Assembly: GCA_947089145.1 (NCBI GenBank)
Contig: CAMUJH010000007.1
Location: 1-64,000, forward strand
Origin: an uncultured Hungatella sp.
Lineage (GTDB): Bacteria; Bacillota; Clostridia; Lachnospirales; Lachnospiraceae
Length of the DNA: 64,000 nucleotides
Direction of reading: 5' to 3'
In this document: piece after piece, positions 3,525 through 63,928 of the stretch
How the letters are laid out: the number at the start of each line of letters is the position of its first letter
Position numbering within the stretch: position 1 is the first letter of the stretch
Notes under the pieces: model-generated
What the model was told of the DNA's origin: nothing
The model's input: the letters and a program-made list of their open reading frames with translations, nothing else
Databases searched by the model: none
Position numbers and translations under genes: made by a program

Positions 3525-6167
3525 ATGAAAAATAAACTGGTATTGATTGACGGACACAGTATTTTAAACCGGGCCTTTTACGGGGTGCCGCAGCTGACCA
3601 ATTCTGAGGGACTTCACACCAATGCGGTGTTTGGGTTCCTCAATATTATGTTTAAGATCCTGGAAGAGGAGGAGGCAGACCATTTGGCAGTTGCTTTTGA
3701 TCTGCCGGAGCCTACATTCCGCCACAAAATGTATGAGGGCTATAAGGGAACCAGAAAGCCTATGCCCCAGGAACTGGCGGAGCAGGTGCCCCTTATGAAA
3801 GATGTGCTGATCTCCATGGGAATTCCCATTATGACTCTGGCAGGGTATGAGGCGGACGATATTCTGGGAACCCTGGCCAAGAAAAATGCGGCAGCAGGGG
3901 CAGAGGTTTCCATTGTGTCCGGGGACAGGGATCTTCTGCAGCTGGCGGATACCCATATAAAGATACGGATTCCAAGAACCAGCAAGGGAACCACCGTGGT
4001 GAAAGACTACTATCCGGAGGACGTGAAGGCGGAGTATCAGGTGACTCCTATAGAGTTTATTGACGTAAAGGCGCTTATGGGGGATCAGTCAGACAATATT
4101 CCGGGAGTGCCTTCCATCGGGGAGAAGACGGCAACCAGCCTTATAGCCGCTTACGGAAGCATTGAAAATGCCTATGCGCATCTTTCAGAGATCAAGCCGC
4201 CCAGAGCCCAGAAGGCGCTGGGAGAACACTATGATATGGCGCAGATGAGCAAAGAATTGGCTGCCATCTGTATTGACTGCCCCATTGCCTTTTCCTATGA
4301 GGATATGGAGATTGGGAATCTGTATACCCAGGAAGCCTATGAGTATATGAAACGCCTGGAATTTAAGTCTATTTTGGCCAGATTTGACGCAGGGGCCATG
4401 GACGGACTTAGGGCGGAGGAACATTTTCGGACAGTTACAGACTTTTCGGAGGCGGAAGCCGTGTTCGAAAAGGCAGGGAAGGCAGGGCGGCTGGGCTTTC
4501 AGCTGATAGTGGAGAACGGGCAGATTGGCGCGGTTTCCCTCTGTTTCGGCGAGGAGGACTGCTATGCCGTCAGCGCCCAGGGATTTCTGACGGCAGGTTA
4601 TCTGGGGCAGAAAGTGGAGCAACTGGCCAAGGGAGAAGGGAAAACGGTGACTCTGAATCTGAAAAGCCAGCTTCCCTTCCTGAACCTTGAAGAGGATTGC
4701 CGGATCATGGATGCGGCAGTGGCCGGGTATCTTTTAAATCCTCTGAAAGATACTTACGATTATGATGACCTGGCCAGGGATTATCTGGGATTGACCGTAC
4801 CGTCCAAAGAGGATCTGCTGGGCAAAAAAGCCATGGCCGGGCAGATGCTTCTGGACGGCCAGGAGAAGGCAGGAATCTGCATCTGCTATATGGGCTACAT
4901 TGCATGGAAATCTGCAGAAGTTTTGGAGACGAAGCTGAAGGAAATGGACATGTGGCATCTGTTTACCCAGGTGGAGATGCCGCTGATCTACAGCCTTTAC
5001 CACATGGAGCGGGCAGGAATCCGGGTGGAGAAGGAGCGGCTTAAGGAGTACGGCGATAACCTGAAAGTCCAGATAGACAGTCTGGAAAAAGAGATCCATC
5101 AGCTGGCAGGGGAGGAATTTAACATCAATTCCCCAAAGCAGCTGGGAGAGATCCTGTTTGAGAAAATGAAGCTGCCTCATGGCAAGAAGACCAAGACCGG
5201 GTATTCCACGGCAGCGGACGTGCTGGAGAAACTGGCGCCGGATCACCCTGTTATCAGGAAGATCCTGGATTACCGGCAGCTGACCAAATTAAATTCCACC
5301 TATGCAGAAGGGCTTTATGGGTTTATCCGGGACGACGGACGGATACACGGCACCTTTAACCAGACCATCACAGCCACAGGACGCATCAGCAGCACAGAGC
5401 CAAACCTTCAGAACATTCCGGTGCGCATGGAACTGGGGCGGCAGATACGCAAGATTTTTGTGCCGGAAGACGGATATACGTTTGTGGATGCGGATTATTC
5501 CCAGATTGAGCTGCGGGTGCTGGCCCATATGTCAGGAGATGAAAGGCTGATTGATGCTTACAGGCAGGCTCAGGACATTCATGCCATTACGGCTTCCCAG
5601 GTGTTCCACATTCCCCTTGAAGAGGTAACGCCTCTTCAGCGGCGCAATGCAAAGGCAGTAAATTTCGGCATTGTCTACGGGATCAGCGCATTTGGCCTCA
5701 GCGAGGATTTAAGCATCAGCCGCAAAGAGGCTGTGGATTACATTGACAAGTATTTTGAGACATATCCGGCTGTAAAGGCGTTTTTGGATAAACAGGTGGA
5801 AGACGGGAAGAAAAACGGGTATGTGGAAACCATGTTCAAACGGCGCAGGCCGATTCCGGAGCTGAAATCAGGGAATTTCATGCAGAGGTCTTTTGGGGAG
5901 CGGGTGGCCATGAACTCTCCCATCCAGGGAACGGCGGCGGATATTATGAAAATCGCCATGATAGAGGTGGACCGGGAACTTAGAAGAAAGGAGCTGAAGT
6001 CCAGAATCGTGCTGCAGGTTCATGACGAGCTTTTGGTAGAGACATGGAAGCCAGAGCTTAAACAGGTAAAGGAGATATTGGAAACAAAAATGAGAGGGGC
6101 TGCAGACCTGCAGGTGGCTTTGGAAGTGGAGGCCTGCCAGGGAGAAAGCTGGTATGATGCGAAATAG
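3525..6167 (+). CDS. polA: DNA polymerase I
   Basis: 880 residues, normal length for a three-domain Pol I. It fills gaps and removes RNA primers during replication and repair. The N-terminal 5'-3' exonuclease domain (about 1-290) opens KLVLIDGHSILNRAFYG and has GYEADDILGT and a helix-hairpin-helix near DNIPGVPSIGEKT. The middle domain (about 300-480) lacks the acidic DxE proofreading motif, reading FQLIVENGQIG there, so the 3'-5' exonuclease is probably dead, as in other Firmicutes. The polymerase domain has DYSQIELRVLAH (D657 metal ligand), the O-helix region RRNAKAVNFGIVYG and VHDELLVE (D834). AGGAG precedes ATG 3525. coaE follows 33 bases downstream. Confidence 0.97.
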   Translation: MKNKLVLIDGHSILNRAFYGVPQLTNSEGLHTNAVFGFLNIMFKILEEEEADHLAVAFDLPEPTFRHKMYEGYKGTRKPMPQELAEQVPLMKDVLISMGIPIMTLAGYEADDILGTLAKKNAAAGAEVSIVSGDRDLLQLADTHIKIRIPRTSKGTTVVKDYYPEDVKAEYQVTPIEFIDVKALMGDQSDNIPGVPSIGEKTATSLIAAYGSIENAYAHLSEIKPPRAQKALGEHYDMAQMSKELAAICIDCPIAFSYEDMEIGNLYTQEAYEYMKRLEFKSILARFDAGAMDGLRAEEHFRTVTDFSEAEAVFEKAGKAGRLGFQLIVENGQIGAVSLCFGEEDCYAVSAQGFLTAGYLGQKVEQLAKGEGKTVTLNLKSQLPFLNLEEDCRIMDAAVAGYLLNPLKDTYDYDDLARDYLGLTVPSKEDLLGKKAMAGQMLLDGQEKAGICICYMGYIAWKSAEVLETKLKEMDMWHLFTQVEMPLIYSLYHMERAGIRVEKERLKEYGDNLKVQIDSLEKEIHQLAGEEFNINSPKQLGEILFEKMKLPHGKKTKTGYSTAADVLEKLAPDHPVIRKILDYRQLTKLNSTYAEGLYGFIRDDGRIHGTFNQTITATGRISSTEPNLQNIPVRMELGRQIRKIFVPEDGYTFVDADYSQIELRVLAHMSGDERLIDAYRQAQDIHAITASQVFHIPLEEVTPLQRRNAKAVNFGIVYGISAFGLSEDLSISRKEAVDYIDKYFETYPAVKAFLDKQVEDGKKNGYVETMFKRRRPIPELKSGNFMQRSFGERVAMNSPIQGTAADIMKIAMIEVDRELRRKELKSRIVLQVHDELLVETWKPELKQVKEILETKMRGAADLQVALEVEACQGESWYDAK

Positions 6168-50577: not shown

Positions 50578-50697
50578 GCCCATGGGGGGCATCTCCTGTC
50601 AAGGTTCAGAATTGCCAAACGTTCCGAAGAGCCCGAAAAACAGGTCTCTTCTCCACGGCATTAATTCACCCTGACAGGAGATGGCCCCCATGGGGCA
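50578..50697 (-). ncRNA. Structured hairpin element, copy 2 (minus-strand orientation)
   Basis: Read on the minus strand it repeats the design at 7731-7835: a long outer stem (50668-50681 with 50592-50605, further extended through GGGGGC/CCCCC outward), an inner stem GAAGAG/CTCTTC (complement of 50646-50651 / 50626-50631), and the apical hairpin CCTG-TTTTT-CGGG. Where copy 1 has GAAAAG/CTTTTC this has GAAGAG/CTCTTC, and the outer stem likewise keeps pairing despite changes. The 650-base gap (50489-51137) also holds the invertible promoter. Confidence 0.55.
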
Positions 50698-50913: not shown

Positions 50914-50939
50914 TTGCCAAAATGTATAGGTTTTGGCAA
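50914..50939. repeat. Recombinase-type site, left copy
   Basis: Arms TTGCCAAAA (50914-50922) and TTTTGGCAA (50931-50939) surround an 8-base asymmetric core TGTATAGG. Its exact reverse complement is at 51041-51066. The arm-core-arm design is that of tyrosine recombinase sites such as dif and lox. Confidence 0.75.
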
Positions 50940-51040
50940 TAGAAAATCATGGGTAAAAATCCATAAGAAAAATGGTTAAGAATATTGAATTTTTGACGAT
51001 ATTATGATAGGATGAACTGAAATTTATAGATATCATAAAG
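50940..51040. other. Candidate invertible promoter segment (101 bp)
   Basis: The DNA between the two inverted 26-bp sites. It contains one good promoter, at present facing right towards the TnpB-like gene and the glycan locus. Recombination between the sites would turn the promoter to face left, towards the structured element at 50578-50697. Confidence 0.65.
50985..51013 (+). promoter_or_regulatory. Promoter inside the invertible segment
   Basis: TTGAAT (50985-50990), 17 bases, TAGGAT (51008-51013) with a TG one base before it (extended -10). Transcription would start near 51020 and read through the right recombinase site. Confidence 0.6.
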
Positions 51041-51066
51041 TTGCCAAAACCTATACATTTTGGCAA
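51041..51066. repeat. Recombinase-type site, right copy
   Basis: TTGCCAAAA (51041-51049), core CCTATACA, TTTTGGCAA (51058-51066): the exact reverse complement of the left copy over 26 bases. In RNA it also forms a 9-bp hairpin in the leader of the TnpB-like gene. Confidence 0.75.
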
Positions 51067-51137: not shown

Positions 51138-52451
51138 ATGCCGCAGAATACCATATGCAAAACTGTTCATCAGTATAATAAGACCCGGATTCCTAGTGAG
51201 GATATGGCCAGGCTTTGTGAGATTGCAGAGGACTGCCGCAGGGTGAAGAACTATGTATACCGGTTATATGGCGGAATCGGCGGCCTGTCAAAGATTTATC
51301 CGGGATATACGGTTCAAAATGAGATGACTGCATCCGGGCTCCGCCAGGAACTGGGACTGCCCTCGGTGTACTTTTATCTGGCAGTGTTTGATGCGCTGGC
51401 AGACATAAAAAGCCAATGGACCAGGACGAAATCCCAGGTTTTGGGAAGGATAAACCAAAATCAGGGCCTGACGCCGGAGGAGAAGCACTTTTTGCGGTTC
51501 CTTTTAAAAGTAAACAATGCGCTGGATGCAGTTCTTAGCCGCAGCAGCGTGCAGCTGCGCCAGGACCTGCAGAAGCAATATGATCAGCTGGCGTCTGGGG
51601 TGGAAGTAAAAAAGCTGGAAAATTATATGCGTAGACAGGTGAGAGCCCTGCATGTGCGGCAGAATTCCCAGAAGGCCGACGGCTTTTCCCTGTCAGAGCG
51701 GGCTTATCGCTATGAGGATCATGGGATCTACATCACCATAAAAGAAAAGCGAAGGAGGATTTTTATTCCTCTGACGGACAATAACCATTACGACAGGCAG
51801 ATTTACTTGAAACTGTTTCCCCAGGAGGGAAACATTGAGATCAAGGTTCCGGTTCAGGTGGCCGTGAAAAGGCATAGGGACTATAAAGCCAGCGTTGGAC
51901 TGGCGCTGGGACTGACCGCCATGTTCGTAACAGATGAAGGGCACATTTACGGGGAAAAGCTGGGAGAATATCAGAGGGAGCAGTCAGAATGGCTGCGCAC
52001 CCAGACAGCCAGACGCCACGCCGACAGGGAGGCAAAACCGGGAAGAAAGAAATATTCCGCAAAAAAGAGGCGGATGGAGGAGAGGCTTCACAGCTACATC
52101 AATATGGAACTGAACCGTTTTCTGAAAACGGAAAAGCCGGAAGTCATTTACATTCCCAAACTGCCCCGGCCAGGGAGACACGGGGGAAACAAAGCGGTGA
52201 ACCATCTGGTTACCCTGTGGCAGAGAGGATATATCAGAAAAAGGCTGGAACAGAAATGCGGCCAGCAGTCCGTAAGGATTGTGGAAGTATTTGGGAAGGG
52301 GATCAGTATTGAATGCAGCGGCTGCGGCGGGGAAGGAATCAGGGAGAACGGGATGTTTAGGTGTCCTGGCTGCGGATATGAGGCGGATGAAAAGAAAAAT
52401 ACGGCCAGGAATGTAAAAAAGCGGGGAACCGCAATGGAAGATTGTCCATGA
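51138..52451 (+). CDS. TnpB-like protein with substituted RuvC catalytic residues
   Basis: 437 residues of the IS200/IS605 TnpB type, the ancestor of Cas12. A helical N-terminal region (CRRVKNYVYRLYGGIG, VYFYLAVFDALADIK) is followed by a RuvC-like core and a zinc ribbon (C393, C396, C409, C412). Aligned by eye to active TnpB, the first RuvC aspartate (G-I-D-L-G) is A256 in GLALGLTAMF, the glutamate (V-V-E-D-L) is P340 in IYIPKLP, and the last aspartate (D-R-D-x-N-A-A) is K419 in DEKKNTARN. It should bind RNA and DNA but not cut. ATG 51138 follows AAGGAGG. No TnpA is present. It is the first gene behind the invertible promoter; a role as an RNA-guided regulator is inference. Confidence 0.75.
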   Translation: MPQNTICKTVHQYNKTRIPSEDMARLCEIAEDCRRVKNYVYRLYGGIGGLSKIYPGYTVQNEMTASGLRQELGLPSVYFYLAVFDALADIKSQWTRTKSQVLGRINQNQGLTPEEKHFLRFLLKVNNALDAVLSRSSVQLRQDLQKQYDQLASGVEVKKLENYMRRQVRALHVRQNSQKADGFSLSERAYRYEDHGIYITIKEKRRRIFIPLTDNNHYDRQIYLKLFPQEGNIEIKVPVQVAVKRHRDYKASVGLALGLTAMFVTDEGHIYGEKLGEYQREQSEWLRTQTARRHADREAKPGRKKYSAKKRRMEERLHSYINMELNRFLKTEKPEVIYIPKLPRPGRHGGNKAVNHLVTLWQRGYIRKRLEQKCGQQSVRIVEVFGKGISIECSGCGGEGIRENGMFRCPGCGYEADEKKNTARNVKKRGTAMEDCP

Positions 52452-52822
52452 AATAGGATCATAGGAGTGTCTGCCCCGATAAACCAGGATGACGAATCCT
52501 GATTTCATCCAGAAAAAAGCAGGGCTTTTGAAAAGGGAACCGGGCAGAAATTCATGATATAAAAAATGTACGGCATTAGAAGGCGGACAGATATAGGAAA
52601 GTCTGCGTATTGGGTATGCCAGGACTCTGCGAACACGGGCTTTGTGTTTCCCATAGGGGCATCAAGGTGAAAAACCTGCCTGAGGGCCAAATTCGGGCGG
52701 GGTATGTGACGTAGCAGGGAGCGAAGCGGGAAGGGCCGCATCATCGTAGGGCCTGCCTGAGGGCGGAGGGCTTTAAGATGACCAATATGCCTTATTTTAA
52801 AATAAACTGGAGAGGGCAGAAC
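52452..52822 (+). ncRNA. Non-coding region after the TnpB-like gene, candidate guide RNA
   Basis: 371 bases without a credible gene, in the position where TnpB guide RNAs (omega RNA/reRNA) are encoded, at the 3' end of the gene and beyond. It contains a 13-base direct repeat CCTGCCTGAGGGC at 52675-52687 and 52752-52764, and several GC-rich stems between 52680 and 52770. The evidence is position and apparent structure only. Confidence 0.35.
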
Positions 52823-54190
52823 ATGAGAAAGCAGCAGAAGAGACAGGCAGAGGAAATCGTCAGCCTGCTGGGAAAGGTCCATGAAGGGATAAAAAAGGCA
52901 GTCGACACAGGAAGATGCGAAGAGGCCATGGGGCTTTTAGCCCAATGCCAGGAAAGCGCCATTCTTCTGGGAGAAACCATAGAAGAGTCAGAAGGGGAAG
53001 GGTTTGAGACGGTTCCGCTTTTGGAAGGATATTGTGAGAAAGTCTACCAGCTCTATGATGCTTTAGGGAAGGGACAGGAAGTAAATGGGGCCAAGGCTGT
53101 TAAGGCGCTGAGAAAGGCTCTGATTCCTGTAGAAAACAGCGTTAAAAATAATATAAAGGTTCGCATGGAAGCGGTGTTCCTGCCATATAAGGCCTCCATG
53201 TGGGATTCTCTGGAGAGCGTGTGGAAGGCGGCAGAAGAAGATCCGGACTGCGACGCTTATGTGATCCCGATTCCTTATTATACGAAAAACCCGGATGGGA
53301 GTTTTCGGCAGGAGCATTACGAGGGTGACCAGTACCCGGATTACGTACCAATAACCAGGTATGAGGATTATGATTTTGCAGGGCGTCATCCGGATATGAT
53401 ATTTATCCATAATCCGTATGATAATTACAATTATCTCACCAGTGTGCATCCTTTTTTTTATTCTAAAAATCTGAAGCAGTTTACAGAAAAATTAGTTTAT
53501 ATACCTTACTTTATACTGGGTGAAATTGAGCCTGAAGATAAAAAAGCAGTGGAGGGAATGTCCCACTTTGTCACGCAGCCTGCAGTGATCTATGCGGATC
53601 GGGTGATCGTTCAGTCTGAGAAAATGCGTCAGATCTATGTAAACGTGATGACAGAGTTTACCAGAAATATATCTGCGGACAGGAAGTACTGGGAGGGGAA
53701 GATCCTTGGCCTTGGATCGCCCAAGACGGATAAGGTGCTGAATACCAGAAAAGATGATGTGGAAGTGCCGGAGGAGTGGCTGAACGTCATAGAAAAAAAG
53801 GACGGAAGCTGGAAAAAGATAATCTTTTATAATACCAGCATTACGGCGCTTCTGCAGAACAGCGAGGGGATGCTTGCTAAGATGCGGGACGTGTTTCAGG
53901 TGTTTCGGGAAAACCAGGAACAGGTGGCGCTGCTTTGGAGGCCCCATCCCCTGATTCGGGCAACCTTTGAGGCCATGAGGCCGCAGCTGTGGGAGGAATA
54001 TGAGGAGATCGTCAAGGAATACCGTGAAGCCGGGTGGGGAATCTATGATGACACGGCGGATGTTGACCGGGCCATCGCCCTGTGCGACGGGTATTATGGG
54101 GATCACAGTTCCCTGGTAAGGCTGTGCAGGGAAGCGGGGAAACCGGTGATGATACAGAATGTGAAATTATGCGCTAAGAGAATGGGATAG
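52823..54190 (+). CDS. CDP-glycerol:glycerophosphotransferase-like protein
   Basis: 455 residues. A helical N-terminal part (about 1-115) precedes a GT-B-like domain of the TagB/TagF family: VIPIPYYTKNPDGSF, FIHNPYDNYNYLTSVHPFF, LLWRPHPLIRAT and CDGYYGDHSSLVRLCREA, the last two being the usual His-Pro and Asp/Ser-Ser substrate sites. It probably attaches a glycerol- or polyol-phosphate to a surface polymer, which fits the TarI/TarJ-like genes upstream. GGAGAGGG precedes ATG 52823; ATG 52778 is an alternative start with GGAGG. It is the last gene of typical base composition before the AT-rich block. Confidence 0.7.
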   Translation: MRKQQKRQAEEIVSLLGKVHEGIKKAVDTGRCEEAMGLLAQCQESAILLGETIEESEGEGFETVPLLEGYCEKVYQLYDALGKGQEVNGAKAVKALRKALIPVENSVKNNIKVRMEAVFLPYKASMWDSLESVWKAAEEDPDCDAYVIPIPYYTKNPDGSFRQEHYEGDQYPDYVPITRYEDYDFAGRHPDMIFIHNPYDNYNYLTSVHPFFYSKNLKQFTEKLVYIPYFILGEIEPEDKKAVEGMSHFVTQPAVIYADRVIVQSEKMRQIYVNVMTEFTRNISADRKYWEGKILGLGSPKTDKVLNTRKDDVEVPEEWLNVIEKKDGSWKKIIFYNTSITALLQNSEGMLAKMRDVFQVFRENQEQVALLWRPHPLIRATFEAMRPQLWEEYEEIVKEYREAGWGIYDDTADVDRAIALCDGYYGDHSSLVRLCREAGKPVMIQNVKLCAKRMG

Positions 54191-54219: not shown

Positions 54220-55407
54220 ATGTCAAAAAGTAAAAGAGGGATCTTGGCTTATGGAGCCTATGTAGAAGAAAATAAATTGTGGATACCTTCCAGAGAAGTA
54301 AATGGATTATTTTATGCTGATCATACAAATAGTGGACATGTAGAGTTTCAACAGACATTTTTAAATTGTAAACAAGAGAACGCTTGGAATATTGGGAAAA
54401 TAATCAACACTGGTGAAGAATTATTTTTTTTCTCCAAGAACGCCTATCAGGTATGGATTTGGAATAAAAAGACCAGGACAATGGAAGATTATTTCTATTG
54501 CCCAGAACAGATGGGAAAAATAACAAATATTGAGCAAGTTCGAAACGAAATTTGGATATTTCCGGATTCTTTTCGGAACCCTATTATTATCTTTGATATA
54601 AAGAGTAAAAAAAGCAGTGCTTTAGAATGGAAAGATATGGGAGTTGTAGACTCGGACAGCTCACCATTTACAAGAACAGTTCAAGAAAAAGGAAAATTAT
54701 ACTTAGCTACAAGGAAAAAAAATGCAATCCGTTTATATGAAATTGACTGCCTGAAAAGACGATGCTTTTCTAAACCGTTAGTTGATCTCTGCTATATTAA
54801 CTGTATAGAAGTAAAGGATAAAACCATATGGATATTAGGCAGAAATAGATCAGAAAAGACAGCTTTATATAGATATGACATTAATACTATGCATCTGGTT
54901 CAAATGATCGAAATGAGGAATATCAAACTTAATGATGACATTTTCATGCAGTATTTCAGAATGGTTCTCATTGGCTTCAGATTGATCTTTATTCCGGCTT
55001 TAGCCACGAATATTATTATATATGATATAGAGAAACAAAAGGATGAAGTATTGCAGTATCCAGAAGGTTTTAGATATGATAAGCAGAAAAAGGGATGCAG
55101 TATGTTTACTGAAATACAAATAGCAGACGGAGTCATGTATTTATTTCCTTTTTCTACGGAACAGATATTGAGTTTGAATTTGTCGGATTTTCGACTAAAA
55201 AGCGTAAATATAGAATGTGACAATGAAGAATATATTAAAGCATGCGCAAATTACTTTTTTAGTGAGAACCGCATTTTTTATGAAGACGAATTCATGACAT
55301 TACCATGCTTATTCTACGACAGTCATAGAGAGAAAAAAAGGGTTAAGAAAATAGAGGCAATATCAGCAGGTGATATGATTTATCAATATATGAGAGATAA
55401 TTGCTAA
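54220..55407 (+). CDS. Beta-propeller-like protein of unknown function
   Basis: 395 residues with no signal peptide. The sequence is mostly short beta strands with recurring patterns of a Trp/Phe/Tyr pair and a turn (KLWIPSREVNGLFYAD, EIWIFPDSFRNPIIIFDI, TIWILGRNRSEKTALYRYDI), spaced by about 45-50 residues, as in six- or seven-bladed propellers. No catalytic motif was recognised. It follows the glycerophosphotransferase-like gene by 29 bases and is in the AT-rich block, so it is probably part of the glycan operon, perhaps a binding or scaffold protein. Confidence 0.5.
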   Translation: MSKSKRGILAYGAYVEENKLWIPSREVNGLFYADHTNSGHVEFQQTFLNCKQENAWNIGKIINTGEELFFFSKNAYQVWIWNKKTRTMEDYFYCPEQMGKITNIEQVRNEIWIFPDSFRNPIIIFDIKSKKSSALEWKDMGVVDSDSSPFTRTVQEKGKLYLATRKKNAIRLYEIDCLKRRCFSKPLVDLCYINCIEVKDKTIWILGRNRSEKTALYRYDINTMHLVQMIEMRNIKLNDDIFMQYFRMVLIGFRLIFIPALATNIIIYDIEKQKDEVLQYPEGFRYDKQKKGCSMFTEIQIADGVMYLFPFSTEQILSLNLSDFRLKSVNIECDNEEYIKACANYFFSENRIFYEDEFMTLPCLFYDSHREKKRVKKIEAISAGDMIYQYMRDNC

Positions 55408-55433
55408 GAAAACAGAAAGGTATAAAAATTTAA

Positions 55434-56585
55434 ATGTTTTCAGAGAAGTTTATAATATATGGTACATCTTGGAATGCTGTTAAATGCATATGGAAAATAG
55501 GAATTGAACATATTTTGCTCTTTGTAGATGAGAAGAAAAATGTATCACAATTTTATGGAAAACCCGTAAGAAGAACAGAGGATGCTTTGGCAATCAGAAA
55601 GAGGGAATACATATTAGTTGCTTCTTCCGAGTCAACTTATTTACAGATTAAAAAGTTTTTAGAAAATTTCGGATTGATAGAATTTGAGGATTTTATCTTT
55701 TATGAGTTATTTAGAAAAAAAATAGCGCTTATTTACGGGAACTGTCATACGATTCCAATAAAAGAGGGGCTGCGTTTAAATAGAAAATTCTATGAAGAAT
55801 ATAGTTTTTACCCATTAAAACCAATTCAGGATATTAAACGCGACAACACATCAGATTATAATTTTCCTGTCTTTGAGAGAAGTGATTTATTTATACACCA
55901 AAATATCAGAGAAAATAATTCTTATGGGCCGGAATACGCTTCAAAGCATTTGTTAAGACGTCTTAAGCCTTCTTGTAAAGTGATTGCAATCCCGAATGTA
56001 TACAAAATTCCGAAATGTTTTTTTCCACAAACTTATGAAGGGAAAGTAATTGAACGGGGGGGCATTAAACTATTTCCTTTTAGAGATACATTTGTTGATC
56101 AGCTTTATGAGGAGCGAAATTCTATAGAAAAAATAGTATCTATACTGAATCAGGATACCTTTATTGATAGAAAGAAAATACATTTGGAATGGGATGTGTT
56201 TTACGATAAAGTGAGAAAAAGAGAATACGAATGGGATGTAAAGCTATCTGACTTTTTAATAGAAAATTATCGCGAGCAGCAGCTTTTTTATGATCAGAAC
56301 CATCCAACAAATGTAATGATTCAATATTTTGTAGTCAGCATTTTAAAAATTCTATATTCAGATATTATTATAGATGAAAGACTCTTTGAAAATTTATTAC
56401 GCTTGGATACATATGAGATTCCAATATATAATTCAGTAGCTAAAGCATTGGATCTGAGATATAAAAAGTGTTTTTTTAGGGAATATAGTAAAAATAAAAT
56501 TTGGCTTAAAGCTATGGATTTCGAAGAATATATCCGACAATATATAATTTGGAATTTTTCAGAACCGGAGGCAGCTTTGAAATAA
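55434..56585 (+). CDS. WcbI-like polysaccharide biosynthesis protein
   Basis: 383 residues. An N-terminal nucleotide-binding-like half (about 1-95; FIIYGTSWNAVKCIW, ILLFVDEKK) is fused to a WcbI-type domain starting KKIALIYGNCHTIPIKEGL, which has the GNC(Q/H) motif of capsule proteins proposed to bind CoA and act in acyl transfer. DLFIHQNIRENNSYG and QLFYDQNHPTNVMIQY fit later family motifs. It may acetylate or otherwise modify a capsule sugar. It is 26 bases behind the propeller-like gene. Confidence 0.65.
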   Translation: MFSEKFIIYGTSWNAVKCIWKIGIEHILLFVDEKKNVSQFYGKPVRRTEDALAIRKREYILVASSESTYLQIKKFLENFGLIEFEDFIFYELFRKKIALIYGNCHTIPIKEGLRLNRKFYEEYSFYPLKPIQDIKRDNTSDYNFPVFERSDLFIHQNIRENNSYGPEYASKHLLRRLKPSCKVIAIPNVYKIPKCFFPQTYEGKVIERGGIKLFPFRDTFVDQLYEERNSIEKIVSILNQDTFIDRKKIHLEWDVFYDKVRKREYEWDVKLSDFLIENYREQQLFYDQNHPTNVMIQYFVVSILKILYSDIIIDERLFENLLRLDTYEIPIYNSVAKALDLRYKKCFFREYSKNKIWLKAMDFEEYIRQYIIWNFSEPEAALK

Positions 56586-56666
56586 ACCTAGGCGTTTTGC
56601 GAATATTTGCTGTATGGAAGCTGTATGCTGATGACATGAAAAAACTAGAAGAAGGAAACAATCGGT

Positions 56667-57529
56667 ATGGAAAATGAGAATGAGCTATCTAAGCTTATAT
56701 TCGATAAGTTTAGTGATATAGACGATATGGAGGAAAAAGAGTTTATTATCTATCCTTTTGGAAAGATAGGAAGAGCAGTAAAAAAAATATTGAATGAAGA
56801 ATGGGGAATTAAAGAGAAATACATTATTGACAGCAAGGAGACAGGAGAAAACATATATCCAATATGTTTTTTGAAAAATAAGGAATTATCTCAATGTTAC
56901 ATAATAATAGCGTGCGACAATCATGAAATCTATAAAGAAATCGTAGAGAATATTTTGGAATATGTCCACAGGTGGCAGATTATAGAGTTGTTTCCAAGAG
57001 TACGGATTGGAAGGTATTCTTATGGACCGCTATGTAATCAGTGGCAGTGTCTTGAGAGTATTGGTGCATTTTGTTCCTTTGCACAAGGAACAGAGATAGT
57101 GGGAAAACATGATGTGTATATATCATCCCATGAATTTCTTTCGTATCCTGGAAATTGGATGCGGCATCCGGGATACATTCCCGGAATAAAAATAGCAAGG
57201 CCTAGAATAAATAAGAAGACACGGATTGGAAATGATGTGTGGATCGGTAAGAATGCTATAATAATTGCTGGATGCAATATTGGAAACGGAGCTATCGTTG
57301 GAGCGGGAGCTGTTGTGACTGCTGATGTACCAGATTATGCTGTTGTCGGGGGGTTCCGGCAAGAATAATAAAGTACAGGTATACTTCCGATCAGATCGAA
57401 AAGCTGAATCAGATAGCATGGTGGGATTGGCCACATAAGAAAATAAGAGAGAATTATTTGGATTTTTATTTAGATATCAATGAATTTATAAAGAAGCACT
57501 ACAGAAATGGAATCCAATATGATAAATAG
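56667..57529 (+). pseudogene. CatB-type hexapeptide O-acetyltransferase, frameshifted at a G-run
   Basis: The N-terminal part (about 1-105) resembles the PglD-type nucleotide-binding domain ([17 protein letters not shown]); then comes a left-handed beta-helix with [27 protein letters not shown] and [22 protein letters not shown]. The first frame stops at 57368 as GGFRQE. One more base in the run of six G at 57348-57353 would restore the family ending G-G-V-P-A-R-I-I-K and 58 more residues (57353-57529, ending RNGIQYDK). That tail is of normal length and composition. Either the gene is phase-variable through the G-run, or it is a recent mutation or a sequencing error. It probably O-acetylates the glycan. 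Confidence 0.75.
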
Positions 57530-57588
57530 TGTTCGGTGTAATGGTATTGTAAATTAATTATATAAAATAAATAGGAGAAAGAAAAGAA

Positions 57589-58242
57589 ATGACTGTAGGA
57601 ATGATACCTGTCAAATTGAATAATCAGCGTGTTCCAGGGAAAAATTTAAAGGCTTTTGAAGACGGTACTCCATTAATTACATTTATTCAGACAGCAATGT
57701 TGGGATGCAAGCTGCTGGATGATATCTATATTTATTGCAGCAATGAGAAAATTACTGACTATGTTTTACCAGGGATAAAATTCTTGAAAAGACCAGAATA
57801 TTTAGATTCTGATCAATGCAATTGCAATGATATTATTTACGAATTTATGAAAGAGATAGATGCAGATATTTATGATGTATCCCATGTTACAGGGCCGTTT
57901 ACAAGAAGCGAAAGTATAGATGCCTGTATTAGGAAGGTGAGGTCAGGAGAATATGATTCTGCATTTCTGGCAAAACGGATGCAGGAATTTCTTTGGTGTG
58001 ATGGAAGTGCGCTTAATTTTGATATACAGAATTTCCCCAGAACACAAGATTTGGCACCGATTTATTCTGAAACTCCAGGAGCATACGTATTTACAAAGAA
58101 GACATTTGAGACATATAGACGCCGCGTAGGGATAAATCCATATATCCATGTGGTTTCAGAAATAGAAAGCAGAGATATTGATTATCCTGAAGACTTTGAA
58201 ATAGCAAATGCCATATATATGAATATCATTAAGAAACAATGA
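57589..58242 (+). CDS. Acylneuraminate cytidylyltransferase-like CMP-sugar synthetase
   Basis: 217 residues, about the length of a NeuA/KdsB catalytic domain. The N-terminal motif IPVKLNNQRVPGKNL is the CTP-binding loop, and later DVSHVTGPFTRSESIDACI and SAFLAKRMQEFLW line the pocket. The family activates alpha-keto acid sugars (sialic, legionaminic, KDO) as CMP-sugars. No NeuB- or KdsA-type synthase is nearby; instead an HMGL-type aldolase gene follows 12 bases later. The actual acceptor may therefore be a different keto acid. Confidence 0.8.
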   Translation: MTVGMIPVKLNNQRVPGKNLKAFEDGTPLITFIQTAMLGCKLLDDIYIYCSNEKITDYVLPGIKFLKRPEYLDSDQCNCNDIIYEFMKEIDADIYDVSHVTGPFTRSESIDACIRKVRSGEYDSAFLAKRMQEFLWCDGSALNFDIQNFPRTQDLAPIYSETPGAYVFTKKTFETYRRRVGINPYIHVVSEIESRDIDYPEDFEIANAIYMNIIKKQ

Positions 58243-58254
58243 GGCAGAATAGAA

Positions 58255-59880
58255 ATGGGACATGTGGAACTGCTTGACTGCACTCTGAGAGACGGAGCAT
58301 ATTTACTGAATAAAAAGTTTGGAAATACAACAATTGCCGGAATAATAGAAGGATTGATATCAGCCAAAATTGACATTATTGAAATCGGATTTCTTCAAAA
58401 TGAAGGATTTGGTCAGGGTATGACTGTATATAGAAATACGAGAGACGCATCAAAGTTTATACCTGCAGATAAAGGAAAAAGTCAAATAGCTGTTCTGGCA
58501 GATTACAGCAGGTATGATATAGCATTTTTGGATGAAAACGATGGAAAGAACATTGATATCATAAGAGAATGTTTCTTTAAACACGAACGCTTTAATGCGA
58601 TTAAAGCCTGCAGAAAAATAAAAGAGAAAGGATATAAGGTATTTGTCCAGCCGGTTGATATACTGGGATATTCTGATTTAGAACTGATTGAATTTATAGA
58701 TTTAATAAATGAAGTTGAACCATATGGAGTATCAATAGTTGATACATTTGGAAGTATGTATCAGGAAGATTTGCATAGAGTTTTTGAAATAATGAATCAT
58801 AACTTAAATACTTCCTGTAAATTAGGATTTCATTCGCATAATAATTTACAGCTGTCAAATGCGCTTTCACAGGAATTTATTCGGATATCAACTGGCAAGA
58901 GGCGTACAGTAATTGATGGAACGATATCGGGAATGGGAAGAGGAGCAGGAAATACACCTATCGAATTGGTAGCACAATATTTGGTATCCCAGTTAGGATA
59001 TGATTATGATATGGATGTTCTTCTTGATTTAATTGATACCTATATGGATAATATTCGTGCAAAGTGCAGCTGGGGGTACTCTACTTCTTATTTTGTTGCC
59101 GGATGTTATGGTGCGCATGTTAATAATATAGATTATTTAGCTAATAAAAACAGTATTAGGCATAAGGATATGCGCCTGATCCTGAACAAAATAGGAGCCG
59201 ATGCCAGAAAACGGTATAATTATGATTTGTTAGAAAAAACCTATTTAGAAATATTGAATGCTGATATTGATGACAGCCAGACTATTGACAGGATAAGACA
59301 GGAAATCAGTGACAGACGTGTATTAATTTTGATTCCAGGTAAAACACTAGATACCGAGAGGGAAAAGATATCAAATTATATTGAAGCACAGAATCCAGTT
59401 GTAATTACAGTAAATTTTATTGATGATAGATTAAAAAGTGATTATGTCTATATGAATAATGTGAAAAGATACCGATACTGGAGCAGTAATAAAAACTTTT
59501 TAAAAGCAAAAAAGATACTAACTTCGAATATATTAGGCGAAGACATTCCTGATAACGCAGAGATTGTATCATTTACCAGACTAGTTAAGTGCGGATGGGA
59601 TTATCTGGATAATTCTGCGGTTATGTTATTCAGGCTTTTAGACGAATTTAATATTTTAGAGATTGCTGTAGCAGGATTTGACGGATACGAAACAAATGGA
59701 AACTATGCTAATGATGATTTAGAGGTTTTGCAGACTTCTGTAAGCGCAGTAAAAGTAAATCAAGAGGTAGAAGAAATGTTGCATGACTATTATAAAAACA
59801 GAAAAAATAGGATGACAAATATTCTTTTTATAACGCCATCGAGATTTGAAAAGTCCTTTCAGATGGATGGAGAAGAATAG
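58255..59880 (+). CDS. HMGL-like aldolase fused to an unknown C-terminal domain
   Basis: 541 residues. The first 290 are a DRE-TIM metallolyase barrel: LLDCTLRDGAYLLNKKFG gives the catalytic Arg and metal Asp, GFHSHNNLQLSNA the metal histidines, and GMGRGAGNTPIEL a conserved loop. It should make or break a C-C bond next to a carboxylate, as 4-hydroxy-2-oxovalerate aldolase or HMG-CoA lyase do. The C-terminal 250 residues (VLILIPGKTLDTEREKISNY) look like a Rossmann-type domain I cannot name. The pair with the CMP-sugar synthetase suggests a role in making an unusual keto acid for the glycan. Confidence 0.78.
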   Translation: MGHVELLDCTLRDGAYLLNKKFGNTTIAGIIEGLISAKIDIIEIGFLQNEGFGQGMTVYRNTRDASKFIPADKGKSQIAVLADYSRYDIAFLDENDGKNIDIIRECFFKHERFNAIKACRKIKEKGYKVFVQPVDILGYSDLELIEFIDLINEVEPYGVSIVDTFGSMYQEDLHRVFEIMNHNLNTSCKLGFHSHNNLQLSNALSQEFIRISTGKRRTVIDGTISGMGRGAGNTPIELVAQYLVSQLGYDYDMDVLLDLIDTYMDNIRAKCSWGYSTSYFVAGCYGAHVNNIDYLANKNSIRHKDMRLILNKIGADARKRYNYDLLEKTYLEILNADIDDSQTIDRIRQEISDRRVLILIPGKTLDTEREKISNYIEAQNPVVITVNFIDDRLKSDYVYMNNVKRYRYWSSNKNFLKAKKILTSNILGEDIPDNAEIVSFTRLVKCGWDYLDNSAVMLFRLLDEFNILEIAVAGFDGYETNGNYANDDLEVLQTSVSAVKVNQEVEEMLHDYYKNRKNRMTNILFITPSRFEKSFQMDGEE

Positions 59881-59923
59881 GAATGCAGCATGAAAGGCAT
59901 ATACAAGTAGAGGGAGAAAGAAT

Positions 59924-61630
59924 TTGAAGGTTATATTTATTCTGTCAAAAGACGTTTATAATATTCCTGCTGTAAAAGTTGCAAAAGAAATGATAAAAAG
60001 AGGGTATGAATTGTTTTTTTATGCCTGGTTTACAGAAGAAATACATATACGGATGTTTCACGAACTTGGGGTCGATATTCATCTGCTTGAGGAGCTGAAT
60101 GAAGACGGTATTAAAGAATGTGATTTTATCTATTCCGCTGCAATGTTGGATAGTCTGCCGCAGCTTTTGAATGTGCCCAAATATATATTTACATTTACTA
60201 CGGTATTTATGGATGAACCGCTTGGATTTGCTGATTTTACATTTACACAGAGAGATATGGGGAAATACTTACAAAGATATGAATATTCCATGGAAAGGAT
60301 AAATGAAATTAAAAGCATACCAGGTCTGAAGGTAGGGAACCCTAAATTTGATTTTGAAGAAGATGCTGTAAATCTTGAACAAAATGAGAAACAGATTCTG
60401 TTTATTGATGCGGGCCATTTCCCATTTGGAAAAAAGGGAAAGTGTGCAGTTGCAGAAATGCTATTAAATATAGCAAAGACATTCCCTGACTATAAAGTAA
60501 TTATTAAGCCCAGATTTTTAAAGACCGACCAGAATGTGACGCATAAAAATGTGGTTAATTTGTATGATTGTTTATATGAAGTCTCTGGTGAAAAAATACC
60601 TGAAAATATAATTTGTCTGCAAAATCACACTGACCTGGAGAGACTGGTTAGAAATAGTAGAACAGTAGTAACTACAGATATGACAACTAGTTACTTAGAT
60701 ATTGCTGCGTATAACAAAAAGGGGATTATTGCAACAGAGATCCCGTCAGAAGAATCACTGACTCACAATAAAGGCCATGTGAAGCGGTTTTTAGAGATTA
60801 GCCACAGAAGTGGGCTCTGCGTTCCGTATAAAAATATAGTAGATTACTTGCCAAGCGGAAAGAGTTTCTCTGAAGTGCATAAAAGAGAAATGGGAATTGG
60901 GGAGAGACAGATATCAGTACATATGGTAGATGTCATGGAAATGATCTATATGGATTTTATAAAGAGGGGACGATATCCTGGATTAGAAGCAGATTTTCGA
61001 GATGAAAAAAATACTTTGACAATGGAGGAAGTAATCAATATTCGTCACATCAAACACCTGTATACGATTATGCAGATTGAAAAGTACAGGATAGAGGAGC
61101 TGGATTTCTCAAATATCGAAAATTTTATTTATGGCTTATTAAAACATCGAAAATCGTTCAATAGAAATAATTATGCAGAATATTGCAAAAAAATTAAGTT
61201 AGAGGTACGCAATACAATTTTAAACAGCAGAGAAATTCTAATGGAAAATGCAATGAAGCAGAGCTATTATTTGCAGGCTGTCTTTGATGCAGAAAGAATT
61301 CATTTAGAAGATGAGAATCAATATGATGCAAAGGAAATGTATTGGTTCTTATTAGGAAAATATGAGATTAGCAAAAGAGGGAATGCAGAACAGGCTATCA
61401 AGTTATTTGACAAGTATTTTGATGGAATTGGCAGGAATGATTACGAAAAAACCTTGGCAGACATACAATATTGCATTGAGTCGGCAACATATTGGAGTGG
61501 TGTTTGTTGCTTTGAACTGGGTATGATGGAAAGGGCCAGAAAATATTTTGAAAAGTGTCAGGTTTTGACTAATAATAAGCATAGAAAAGCTAATGAATAC
61601 TTGAATTACATTAGCGAGAGAAAGATGTAG
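59924..61630 (+). CDS. Glycosyl- or glycerophosphotransferase-like protein with TPR tail
   Basis: 568 residues. The first 350 resemble a GT-B fold (MKVIFILSKDVYNIPAVKVAK, YKVIIKPRFLKTDQ, SRTVVTTDMTTSYLDIAAY), like the glycerophosphotransferase and UDP-GlcNAc epimerase groups. After a helical linker, the C-terminal 130 residues are TPR-like helices (YWFLLGKYEISKRGNAEQAI, ELGMMERARKYFEKCQ). It probably adds a sugar or a phosphate-linked unit and interacts with partners through the tail. TTG 59924 follows AGGGAGAAAG. No transmembrane segment is seen. Confidence 0.6.
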   Translation: MKVIFILSKDVYNIPAVKVAKEMIKRGYELFFYAWFTEEIHIRMFHELGVDIHLLEELNEDGIKECDFIYSAAMLDSLPQLLNVPKYIFTFTTVFMDEPLGFADFTFTQRDMGKYLQRYEYSMERINEIKSIPGLKVGNPKFDFEEDAVNLEQNEKQILFIDAGHFPFGKKGKCAVAEMLLNIAKTFPDYKVIIKPRFLKTDQNVTHKNVVNLYDCLYEVSGEKIPENIICLQNHTDLERLVRNSRTVVTTDMTTSYLDIAAYNKKGIIATEIPSEESLTHNKGHVKRFLEISHRSGLCVPYKNIVDYLPSGKSFSEVHKREMGIGERQISVHMVDVMEMIYMDFIKRGRYPGLEADFRDEKNTLTMEEVINIRHIKHLYTIMQIEKYRIEELDFSNIENFIYGLLKHRKSFNRNNYAEYCKKIKLEVRNTILNSREILMENAMKQSYYLQAVFDAERIHLEDENQYDAKEMYWFLLGKYEISKRGNAEQAIKLFDKYFDGIGRNDYEKTLADIQYCIESATYWSGVCCFELGMMERARKYFEKCQVLTNNKHRKANEYLNYISERKM

Positions 61631-61640
61631 GGGAGTGGCT

Positions 61641-62834
61641 ATGAGAATATTATTTATAGCAACTGATTATCCTGAACGTGGAAAACCGACTACAGGATTT
61701 CCTAATTATATCAAAAGAGTTTCTTTGGCGTTAAGAAAAATGGGACATGAACCGCTAATCTTAGCTGCTGGCAGGAGAGACTGGTATAGGGTAGAGAATG
61801 AAATTGATATCTGGACAGTAGCTGTAGACTGTAAAGATTATAAAATTCCGGAATTATCCTATGTAGTAAATGCATTGAAAAAGAGTTATGCCCTTAACAA
61901 AAAAGCTGATGATATAATTAAAAAATTATCTGTTGATGTAATTCAATTTACGTCTCTTGAAGGCAGTGCAATATTTTATAAAGGAACTGTTCCTGCTATT
62001 CTGAGGCTCTCTTCTTATGCTAAAACTTATTACAGCTCTTTTCAGACTCTCTCACCGTCTATGGTAGGAATTATGTCTTTGTTGGAAAGATGGTCTGCAC
62101 GAAAATGTAAGGTTATATTTGCTCCTTGCCAGATCACAGCATATGCTTTTGGAAGAGACTGTAACAGAGATGTTAAGGTAATAGAGACTCCCTTTATAAA
62201 CGATGTAGAGGATTATGATGATAGTTACTTTGATAACTATTTAAAGGATAAAAAGTATATATTGTTTTTTGGAAGCCTGTATGCAGAAAAGGGAATTTTA
62301 ATAATCGCAGACATACTTGAAAGGTTTTTACAGAAAAATCCGGAATACTATTTTGTATTTGCAGGAGATGCGTGCAGCATAGATGGGGAAAAAAGTGACA
62401 ATTTGCTGAAGAGAAAGGCGGGAAAAAATGCAGATAGGGTATTAATATGGAGTGCATTGCCGCATGAAAAATTGTATCCAATTATAAAAGGATCAGACTT
62501 TGTTGTGCTTCCGTCTTTAATGGATAATTTTCCTAATGCATGTATTGAGGCAATGTATTTTGGGAAGGTTGTAATAGGTACAGATGGGGCAAGTTTTGAA
62601 CAGCTTATTATACATGGTAAAAGCGGGTTATTATGTAAAATAGGAGATTCAGAAGATCTGATGAAAAAGATAGAACAAGCCGCTTTGATGACTGAGGATC
62701 AGAAATTTCAAATGGGGAAACGGGCGCAGATGCGGATAGAAAGACTGAAGCCGGATTTAGCGGTGAATAGGCTGCTCCGTCTGTATGAATATACGATAAA
62801 AAATAGAAAGTCCACTATTTTCAAAGGAAATTGA
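61641..62834 (+). CDS. Family 4 glycosyltransferase
   Basis: 397 residues with the GT4 GT-B fold: an N-terminal domain opening RILFIATDYPERGKPTTGFPN and a C-terminal nucleotide-sugar domain with ILFFGSLYAEKG, VLIWSALPHEKLYPIIKGSDFV and LPSLMDNFPNACIEAMYFGK, containing the E-x7-E motif. It is a retaining transferase using a nucleotide sugar, probably making part of the capsule or cell wall polymer at the inner membrane face. ATG 61641 follows GGGGAG and is 10 bases after the previous stop. Confidence 0.88.
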   Translation: MRILFIATDYPERGKPTTGFPNYIKRVSLALRKMGHEPLILAAGRRDWYRVENEIDIWTVAVDCKDYKIPELSYVVNALKKSYALNKKADDIIKKLSVDVIQFTSLEGSAIFYKGTVPAILRLSSYAKTYYSSFQTLSPSMVGIMSLLERWSARKCKVIFAPCQITAYAFGRDCNRDVKVIETPFINDVEDYDDSYFDNYLKDKKYILFFGSLYAEKGILIIADILERFLQKNPEYYFVFAGDACSIDGEKSDNLLKRKAGKNADRVLIWSALPHEKLYPIIKGSDFVVLPSLMDNFPNACIEAMYFGKVVIGTDGASFEQLIIHGKSGLLCKIGDSEDLMKKIEQAALMTEDQKFQMGKRAQMRIERLKPDLAVNRLLRLYEYTIKNRKSTIFKGN

Positions 62835-62839
62835 AATAC

Positions 62840-63928
62840 ATGAAAGAAATCAGTGTAGAAGGAAAAAGTATTTTGGTAACAGGAGCTGCCGGATTTATTG
62901 GAGCAAATTTGATTTTAAAGTTATTAAAAGACTTTGAGAATATCAAGATTATTGGTATTGATAATATGAACAGCTATTATGATGTCTCGATAAAAGAGTA
63001 TAGACTTCATCAGATTGAAGAACTTGCGAAGTCAGTTTCAGGTACATTTAGATTCATCAAAGCTGATATTGCGGATAAAAAAGTAATCCAGGCGTTATTT
63101 ACTCTTTCTAAGCCAGAAATCGTAGTGAATCTGGCTGCACAGGCAGGAGTCCGTTATTCTATTATTGAGCCAGATGCATACATAGAAACAAACTTGAAAG
63201 GATTTTACAATATTTTAGAAGCATGCAGACATTCTGGAGAGGGTAATAATAGGGGAGTGAAACATCTGGTATATGCATCATCTTCCAGCGTTTACGGGAA
63301 CAGCAGAAAGAAAAACTATAGTATTGAGGACAAAGCAGATTATCCAGTTTCTCTTTATGCAGCTACCAAAAAATCCAATGAATTGTTAGCTCATGCATAC
63401 AGCAAACTTTATGACATTCCATCAACCGGCCTTCGTTTTTTTACAGTTTATGGTCCGGCCGGGCGTCCGGATATGGCATATTTTTCCTTTACAAAAAAGT
63501 TATTGTCTGATCAGGTAATTCAGCTTTTTAATTATGGAAACTGCAAGCGGGATTTTACTTATATAGATGATGCTGTGGAGGGCATTGAACGGGTGATACA
63601 GAAAGCACCTGAAAAACGAGACGGTGCAGATGGACTGCCTGCGGCACCTTATGCAATCTATAATATTGGAAACGGCAATCCGGTCGATCTTATTAATTTT
63701 GTAGATGTGCTGCAGCAGGAACTGATAAGAGCAAAAGTATTGCCGGAAAATTTTGACTTTGAGGTTCATAAAGAATTAACTTCTATGCAGCCGGGAGATG
63801 TAGAGGTTACTTGTGCGGATATAAGCGAATTGGAACGGGATTTTGGTTTTAGGCCATCAATACCGTTAAGAACAGGGTTAAGAAGATTTGCCCAATGGTA
63901 TAAGGATTTTTATCAAAATAAATTATAA
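62840..63928 (+). CDS. UDP-glucuronate 4-epimerase-like protein
   Basis: 362 residues of the extended SDR family. TGAAGFIGANL binds NAD; SSSVYGNSRK, YAATKKSNELLAHAY (catalytic Tyr and Lys) and RFFTVYGPAGRPDMAYFSF follow. The length and the VYGPAGRPDM motif fit UDP-glucuronate 4-epimerase (CapI type), giving UDP-galacturonate for an acidic capsule. ATG 62840 follows AAAGGAA; the first 6 codons of an alternative TTG start (62831) overlap the previous stop. Confidence 0.85.
   Translation: MKEISVEGKSILVTGAAGFIGANLILKLLKDFENIKIIGIDNMNSYYDVSIKEYRLHQIEELAKSVSGTFRFIKADIADKKVIQALFTLSKPEIVVNLAAQAGVRYSIIEPDAYIETNLKGFYNILEACRHSGEGNNRGVKHLVYASSSSVYGNSRKKNYSIEDKADYPVSLYAATKKSNELLAHAYSKLYDIPSTGLRFFTVYGPAGRPDMAYFSFTKKLLSDQVIQLFNYGNCKRDFTYIDDAVEGIERVIQKAPEKRDGADGLPAAPYAIYNIGNGNPVDLINFVDVLQQELIRAKVLPENFDFEVHKELTSMQPGDVEVTCADISELERDFGFRPSIPLRTGLRRFAQWYKDFYQNKL

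Follow-up and report, generated by a model that had tools for sequence, protein, structure and literature searches.

In Bacteroides, several capsule loci per genome each have an invertible promoter of their own, with Mpi acting in trans and a regulator (UpxY/UpxZ) as the first gene, and the mutual exclusion of surface types is the role of UpxY/UpxZ. In Clostridioides difficile, the tyrosine recombinase RecV serves several sites; to our knowledge, no TnpB takes part in the RecV switches. In the literature searched, which has subscription papers and preprints outside it, the only close parallel found is the flagellin-linked TldR case, i.e. the CsrA-associated TldR loci of Oscillibacter and Flavonifractor, which the consulted part of the source describes as combining hin with promoter inversions of ~120 bp (PMC13418256). 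None of six terms around glycan, capsule and Lachnospiraceae occurs in the main text of that source.

The DNA analysed here, called the window, is a stretch of 64,000 nt from an uncultured Hungatella sp. It is contig C7 of a genome of 4.46 Mb in 127 contigs that is 87% complete; the other contigs are numbered in the same way. A sequence-only reading had proposed an invertible promoter at 50914..51066, and the dead TnpB and the conserved RNA described below lie beyond these coordinates. The locus has the following features:

50914..50939, + strand: left 26-bp recombination site (predicted), exact reverse complement of the right site
50940..51040, + strand: invertible segment of 101 bp, ON orientation in the window; C24, C34 and C52 have a similar segment that is turned the other way with respect to the gene
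50985..51013, + strand: promoter, TTGAAT (50985-50990), 17-base spacer, TAGGAT (51008-51013), extended -10; the words are present and the motif occurs in 26/85 loci
51041..51066, + strand: right 26-bp recombination site (predicted), exact reverse complement of the left site
51138..52451, + strand: TnpB-like, nuclease-dead protein of 437 aa; PF07282 (3.3e-08), TnpB/Cas12f-like model, A256, P340 and K419
52570..52796, + strand: conserved structured RNA of 227 nt, gRNA/omegaRNA-like; end motifs in 61/85 loci, covariation on 35/61
52823..54190, + strand: glycerophosphotransferase-like protein, first glycan gene; PF04464 (2.8e-04, below cut-off)
54220..63928, + strand: further genes, several of surface glycan type; Pfam, and translations read by eye

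The 85 loci used for comparison comprise 80 from one scan of named genomes (81 matched, 80 were kept) and the five loci of the source genome.

Our best explanation, to which we assign a probability of about 0.77, is a phase switch in which a serine recombinase of the C21 type flips the promoter, and the dead TnpB acts together with its RNA as an RNP regulator. A small Hin/Sin-like serine recombinase encoded elsewhere in the genome (C21) would recombine the two 26-bp sites and flip the 101-bp promoter segment. In the ON orientation, as in the window, the promoter would drive transcription of the nuclease-dead TnpB-like gene, of the structured RNA and of the surface glycan genes that follow; in the OFF orientation it would point away from the TnpB-like gene. 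The five loci of the source genome are represented in the assembly by two ON and three OFF states. The dead TnpB and the RNA would form a TldR-like RNP, which might repress targets by RNA guidance or act on the glycan transcript as it is made; our best guess for this pair is a phase-controlled RNP of the TldR type. The explanation is built on sequence evidence (the cassette, the orientations of its paralogues, a contig junction, catalytic loss, RNA covariation and recombinase association), and we infer transcription from the cassette and the role of the RNP.

The two 26-bp elements that the sequence-only reading had described as exact reverse complements around 101 bp were confirmed at 50914-50939 and 51041-51066. 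The left site reads TTGCCAAAATGTATAGGTTTTGGCAA, and the inverted repeat grows to 27 nt if the outer G/C is counted. No third copy of the site within three mismatches is present in the window. Two copies of the site were found in 0 of 100 shuffles, and exact inverted arms of 16 nt, 30-300 bp apart, occurred in 0 of 30 mononucleotide shuffles of the window, the observed value being 27 nt. Chance does not account for the site pair. A second inverted pair, with arms of 38 nt that are 82% complementary and 40 nt apart, lies between a dehydrogenase gene and the switch (50579-50694) and could be a hairpin or a terminator.

A search for other copies of the site had been proposed as a check, and the genome proved to have four more cassettes, all at TnpB-like genes. 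The five cassettes (C7, C24, C34, C36 and C52) are each located upstream of a full-length TnpB-like gene. Those of C24 and C52, whose interior is similar to that of C7, were found with the site, and a search with three TnpB-like proteins revealed the full-length genes on C7, C24, C52, C34 and C36 as well as fragments on C62. With up to two mismatches, the site pattern occurs in the assembled genome only at the five TnpB-like loci, at C35:40074, at C62:18661 and at the start of C52; the reversed pattern has 0 matches under the same conditions. At C62:18219-18680, TnpB-like fragments with stops have a decayed site alongside. C35:40074-40093 (L236) is an orphan cassette remnant with one site and a promoter-like stretch, while neither a second site by pattern nor a TnpB-like match was found on C35. 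Only C7 has an identical site pair. The two sites differ at some bases in the C24, C34, C36 and C52 cassettes, and some of these cassettes may therefore flip poorly. Among 397 genomes of the family, the exact site pattern is found in one, the source genome itself, which we would explain by variable outer arms together with the rarity of the TnpB-like family; the latter is patchy, being present in 5 of 150 family genomes, source included.

The promoter claimed to face the downstream genes scores weakly in a generic consensus scan. The words TTGAAT and TAGGAT with a spacing of 17 and a TG before the -10 are present, but in a generic sigma-70 scan the pair reaches 8 of 12, under the limit of 9, and hence is absent from the output. 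The scan gave two matches in the region versus a shuffle mean of 2.6, i.e. no excess. The promoter call for C7 is supported by conservation of the motif across related loci: a 29-nt promoter motif, picked by eye from loci that included C7, scores at least 21 on one strand in 26 of the 85 loci, the maximum in 740 shuffled sequences being 20. Apart from the promoter words, the invertible segments of C7, C24, C36 and C52 have a well-conserved stretch like GGGTAAAATTCCATAAGAAAAATGGTTAAGA; it may be a site for a further regulator.

The TnpB-like gene most likely starts with the ATG at 51138, which has GGAGG upstream; the TTG at 51060 given in the ORF list is less likely. The predicted model of the protein (mean pLDDT 86, pTM 0.59) matches Cas12f and TnpB in Foldseek (E 2.0e-12 and 3.2e-12, respectively), and the PF07282 match represents the TnpB zinc-finger domain. 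At the three RuvC positions, which were confirmed against two TnpBs, the window protein has A, P and K versus D, E and D in the archaeal TnpB; the phage TnpB in the alignment has the first two residues and lacks the third D. D and E are absent from all three positions in 84 of 84 members (the 85 loci minus the partial L123), with one gap at position 419, and the zinc-finger Cys are kept in 83 of the 84. With a predicted TnpB fold and a RuvC that appears inactive, the window protein resembles the TldRs in this property. In Thermus phage TMA (L274), a TnpB for which the third RuvC aspartate is absent in the alignment adjoins a resolvase-like gene.

Downstream of the TnpB-like gene, both end motifs of the structured RNA are present in 61 of the 85 loci; at C24, the RNA was not detected by motif. 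The alignment comprises 35 of the 61, the 26 longer ones, C7 included, having been dropped before counting. In these 35 loci, 95.8% of the cells are paired and 21 of 34 pairs have two-sided changes, for a structure that was drawn from the same alignment. The two-sided changes amount to 147 cells versus 41 in shuffles, 0 of 500 shuffles being as high, and when the partners are slid, pairing drops from 95.8% to 33-42%. RNAalifold alone gives 22 of 30 pairs with two-sided changes and pairs some columns otherwise. A pseudoknot has no covariation support in this alignment: of its six pairs, five are invariant and the remaining one is broken in 13 of the 35 loci. An Rfam family was rejected for the region (one match, E 0.23, far under the gathering score), and so was a repeat array after the RNA, as no locus has two copies of the motif.

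Guide targets were sought in several ways. The conserved RNA 3′ end was rejected as a guide to a genomic target, its exact matches in the whole assembly being confined to the RNA scaffolds of C7 and C52; with up to one mismatch, 21 matches were obtained versus 23 for the reversed control. The locus-specific RNA ends had no exact match outside the RNAs in the part of the source genome that was searched. Stretches after the RNA share 12-mers in 11 of 45 same-genome locus pairs versus 273 of 2055 other-genome pairs, almost a doubling of the rate (Fisher p 0.04), and in 7 of 29 same-genome pairs (p 0.10) when the source genome, with its longer stretches, is left out. The shared 12-mers are mostly AT-rich, and the clearest exception is common to L084 and L088. 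The 13-nt word TGCGGACAGAAAA, which is not AT-rich, follows the RNA of L084 and recurs in L088, a locus of the same genome, and within L084; it is a possible guide lead. A 12-mer of the C7 end recurs at position 3529 of the window, and such a pair was seen in 0 of 100 shuffles; we judge it to be due to chance because 34 words were tried and because it falls at the beginning of an ORF of 880 aa. The comparisons of conserved ends, locus-specific ends and shared words revealed no convincing guide target in the genome.

For this reason, a role on the glycan transcript is nearly as likely as TldR-like guidance. The corresponding alternative leaves the switch as it is and turns the dead TnpB and its RNA into a cis-acting regulator of the transcript, e.g. 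by antitermination; it is compatible with our best explanation, and we entertain it tentatively. The RNA separates the TnpB-like gene from the glycan genes, and its end is often near the start codon that follows. At C7, the end of the RNA overlaps the ribosome-binding site of the following gene, which makes a free guide awkward there. That the conserved 3′ end matches exactly only two RNA scaffolds of the own genome points in the same direction. In contrast, the predicted model and the zinc finger are those of the guide-RNA-dependent TnpB and Cas12f, and published TldRs with a dead RuvC bind DNA by a guide, according to the consulted part of the source (PMC13418256). An extension of the guided reading is that the dead TnpB and RNA of an ON locus silence or exclude the remaining glycan loci or, in the branch linked to flagellin, the flagellin, resulting in mutually exclusive surface types. 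We consider this rather unlikely; if true, inversion and RNA guidance would together make a phase-variable switch of the coat.

The position at the head of a surface glycan locus with a TnpB-like gene is supported by the gene order of the window and by the relatives. For the glycerophosphotransferase-like gene, the ORF list has a start at 52778, and the ATG at 52823 with its ribosome-binding site fits better; PF04464 is over the cut-off in the relative at L047. Pfam assigns WcbI-like, HMGL-like and NAD-dependent epimerase families within 54220..63928 and no family to the genes at 54220 and 59924; by our own reading of the translations, acyltransferase-, NTP-transferase- and glycosyltransferase-like genes are probably also included. 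A homologue of the glycerophosphotransferase-like protein is present in 59 of the 84 other loci, 58 times downstream, in a set in which 78 of the 85 loci have more than 1 kb of downstream sequence. The C36 locus encodes LicD and cytidylyltransferase domains.

Near the TnpB-like gene, a script found repeats 99-119 bp apart in 28 of the 85 loci (short type), versus none of the 85 in any of five shuffles, as well as repeats 1.1-1.6 kb apart in 15 of the 85 (long type); some cassettes seen otherwise, e.g. that of C52, are missed by the script. Strain 1XD21-70 and Sporofaciens musculi are examples of cultured bacteria with short-type loci. A search of the genome for recombinase genes, which had been put forward as a check, turned up a serine recombinase on C21 and tyrosine recombinases on C1, C12 and C66, and none in the window: the earlier statement that the window holds no recombinase gene was borne out for PF00589 and PF00239, neither of which has a match on C7. 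The layout of the sites had been ascribed to a tyrosine recombinase. This is not supported for the short cassette, for which the likely enzyme, judged from sequence comparisons, is the small serine invertase C21:32006-32596. The C21 protein (about 200 aa) is over the cut-off for PF00239 (96.5 bits), matches the PHROG DNA invertase (1.9e-49) and, in the PDB, Sin, gamma-delta resolvase and DNA-invertase; it is under the NCBIfam cut-offs for named enzymes, its match to the Mpi model being weak and below cut-off. A putative C-terminal helix-turn-helix was read by eye. The 26-bp palindromic site of the C7 type presumably resembles the hix sites of Hin.

In the source genome, the C21 gene is not beside any cassette. 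A C21-like serine recombinase is located upstream of eight sister loci (62-75% identity, one partial), and in the six of them with short-spaced repeats found by the script, the distance from the end of the match to the left repeat is 70-284 bp in five and 1.3 kb in L120. All 18 short-type genomes examined have a C21 homologue (61-98% identity); this set leaves out the genomes of L060 and L104, the latter locus being adjoined by a serine recombinase, and G111 and G410, which have the same recombinase matches, are probably one genome. For comparison, 24 controls were drawn outside the five genomes with a TnpB-like match: nine have a homologue of near full length at 53% identity or higher, two a partial one and one a homologue at 41%. 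The difference gives a Fisher p of 1.4e-5 for 18/18 vs 9/24 and of 3e-4 for 18/18 vs 12/24 (any match), in genomes that are not matched for relatedness. In the same-genus genome G114, neither a TnpB-like gene nor a C21-type recombinase was found. From these associations, we infer that the C21 recombinase acts on the 26-bp sites.

Half of the controls match C21 and four cassettes have non-identical sites, which slightly lowers the serine reading and slightly raises the alternative of a real switch worked by a tyrosine recombinase, i.e. a homologue at C1:48879-49841 or C12:2479-3414, or the tandem pair of C66. Overall, we regard this alternative as improbable. A tyrosine recombinase is located upstream in 20 of the 85 loci (15 in the direction of the gene, 5 opposed; an extra expression match in L104 is a false positive by sequence and was not counted), the script's long-spaced repeats enclose it in 14 of the 20, and the C1 and C12 proteins are ~28-46% identical to these cis-encoded enzymes. 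However, the long-type sites, TTCGCAGAAT...ATTCTGCGAA, are unlike the short-type sites, relatives of the C66 pair at 40% identity or higher occur in 10 of the 18 short-type genomes and also in G114 without a TnpB-like gene, and no L012-like match was found within short-type loci with flanks of up to ~5 kb. In two loci (L085, 2437-6326, and L093, 2674-6344), a C66-like tyrosine recombinase is followed by a flagellin gene and then by the TnpB-like gene, a possible bridge to the flagellin TldRs; L078 and L090 also have a C66-like tyrosine recombinase. Very long inverted repeats (239 and 55 nt) surround the recombinase segment upstream of the TnpB-like gene in L100 and L109, respectively.

That the promoter is invertible, as the sequence-only reading had proposed, is supported mostly by comparison: paralogues in both orientations, a contig end at C36 and a double junction in L051. 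C7 and C36 have the promoter directed toward the gene, whereas it is directed away in C24, C34 and C52, and the window locus was not encountered in a flipped copy; among all 85 loci, it is directed toward the gene in 8 and away in 18, the other 59 having no orientation call. C52 begins with the initial 55 bases of C36 in reverse complement. This exact overlap of 55 bp stops where the left repeat of the C36 locus has its inner edge; from there, the unflipped sequence continues with TAG and the flipped one would continue with CTT. De Bruijn assemblers leave a fixed-length overlap of this kind at a branch. The reads of the C36 locus probably held both orientations, because the overlap ends where the flipped and unflipped sequences diverge. 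Among the loci of the source genome, a break at the predicted junction is seen only at C36. In L051 (isolate B67_67_LP_H), a single N in the scaffold separates an OFF junction from an ON junction; L052, 95% identical to L051, is OFF. Homologous loci also differ in the direction of the recombinase-bearing segment with respect to the gene, which is inverted, e.g., in L110 vs L119, L114 and L116.

The repeats could instead be fixed repressor operators around the promoter without any DNA inversion, as befits palindromic sites that flank a promoter. Each locus of the source genome is assembled in one state only, which is compatible with this view. Fixed operators, however, leave the mixed orientations and the contig ends unexplained: of the 26 scored loci, 18 have a promoter directed away from the gene, a contig ends at the predicted base, both junctions are found in L051, and the loci are associated with serine recombinases. 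We therefore hold this alternative to be very improbable. Several copies with a similar interior and one orphan at C35 might suggest a spreading MITE-like mobile repeat without a regulatory role, but this is hardly credible, as all two-site copies in the source genome stand at TnpB-like genes and the arrangement is found again near the gene in many genomes.

Under the phase-switch explanation, the bacterium appears to flip short promoters before several surface-sugar clusters, each begun by a disabled relative of TnpB, which suggests that the dead TnpB, usually with a structured RNA of its own, is an unstudied regulator of the bacterial coat. As two classes of recombinases serve the same dead-TnpB family, the regulator is suggested to be the constant part. 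If this is true, Lachnospiraceae-type bacteria contain a large glycan-linked family of dead TnpBs under the control of DNA inversion, which would offer a test case for whether RNA-guided factors choose the surface polymer that a commensal presents to host and phages.

Compared with the TnpBs of IS607/IS605 and with Cas12f, the window protein shares the fold and the zinc finger, but is without all three catalytic residues. With the RecV system of C. difficile, the locus has in common a recombinase-worked promoter switch in a Firmicute, as far as the consulted part of the source describes it (PMC8890394). The likeness to Bacteroides includes several surface polysaccharide loci per genome, invertible promoters worked in trans and a regulator as the first gene; in contrast, the first gene here encodes a dead TnpB accompanied by an RNA instead of an antiterminator, and the similarity of C21 to the Mpi model stays below cut-off. 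The CsrA-associated TldR loci share a dead TnpB homologue downstream of an invertible promoter, an adjoining serine invertase and several loci per genome, whereas they are linked to csrA, fliC and a FliA-dependent promoter, and the present loci to surface glycan genes and another conserved promoter. Based on the consulted part of that source, the parts have thus already been combined for flagellin, in the form of CsrA-TldR loci with hin-linked inversions (PMC13418256), and the present family is mainly tied to glycans.
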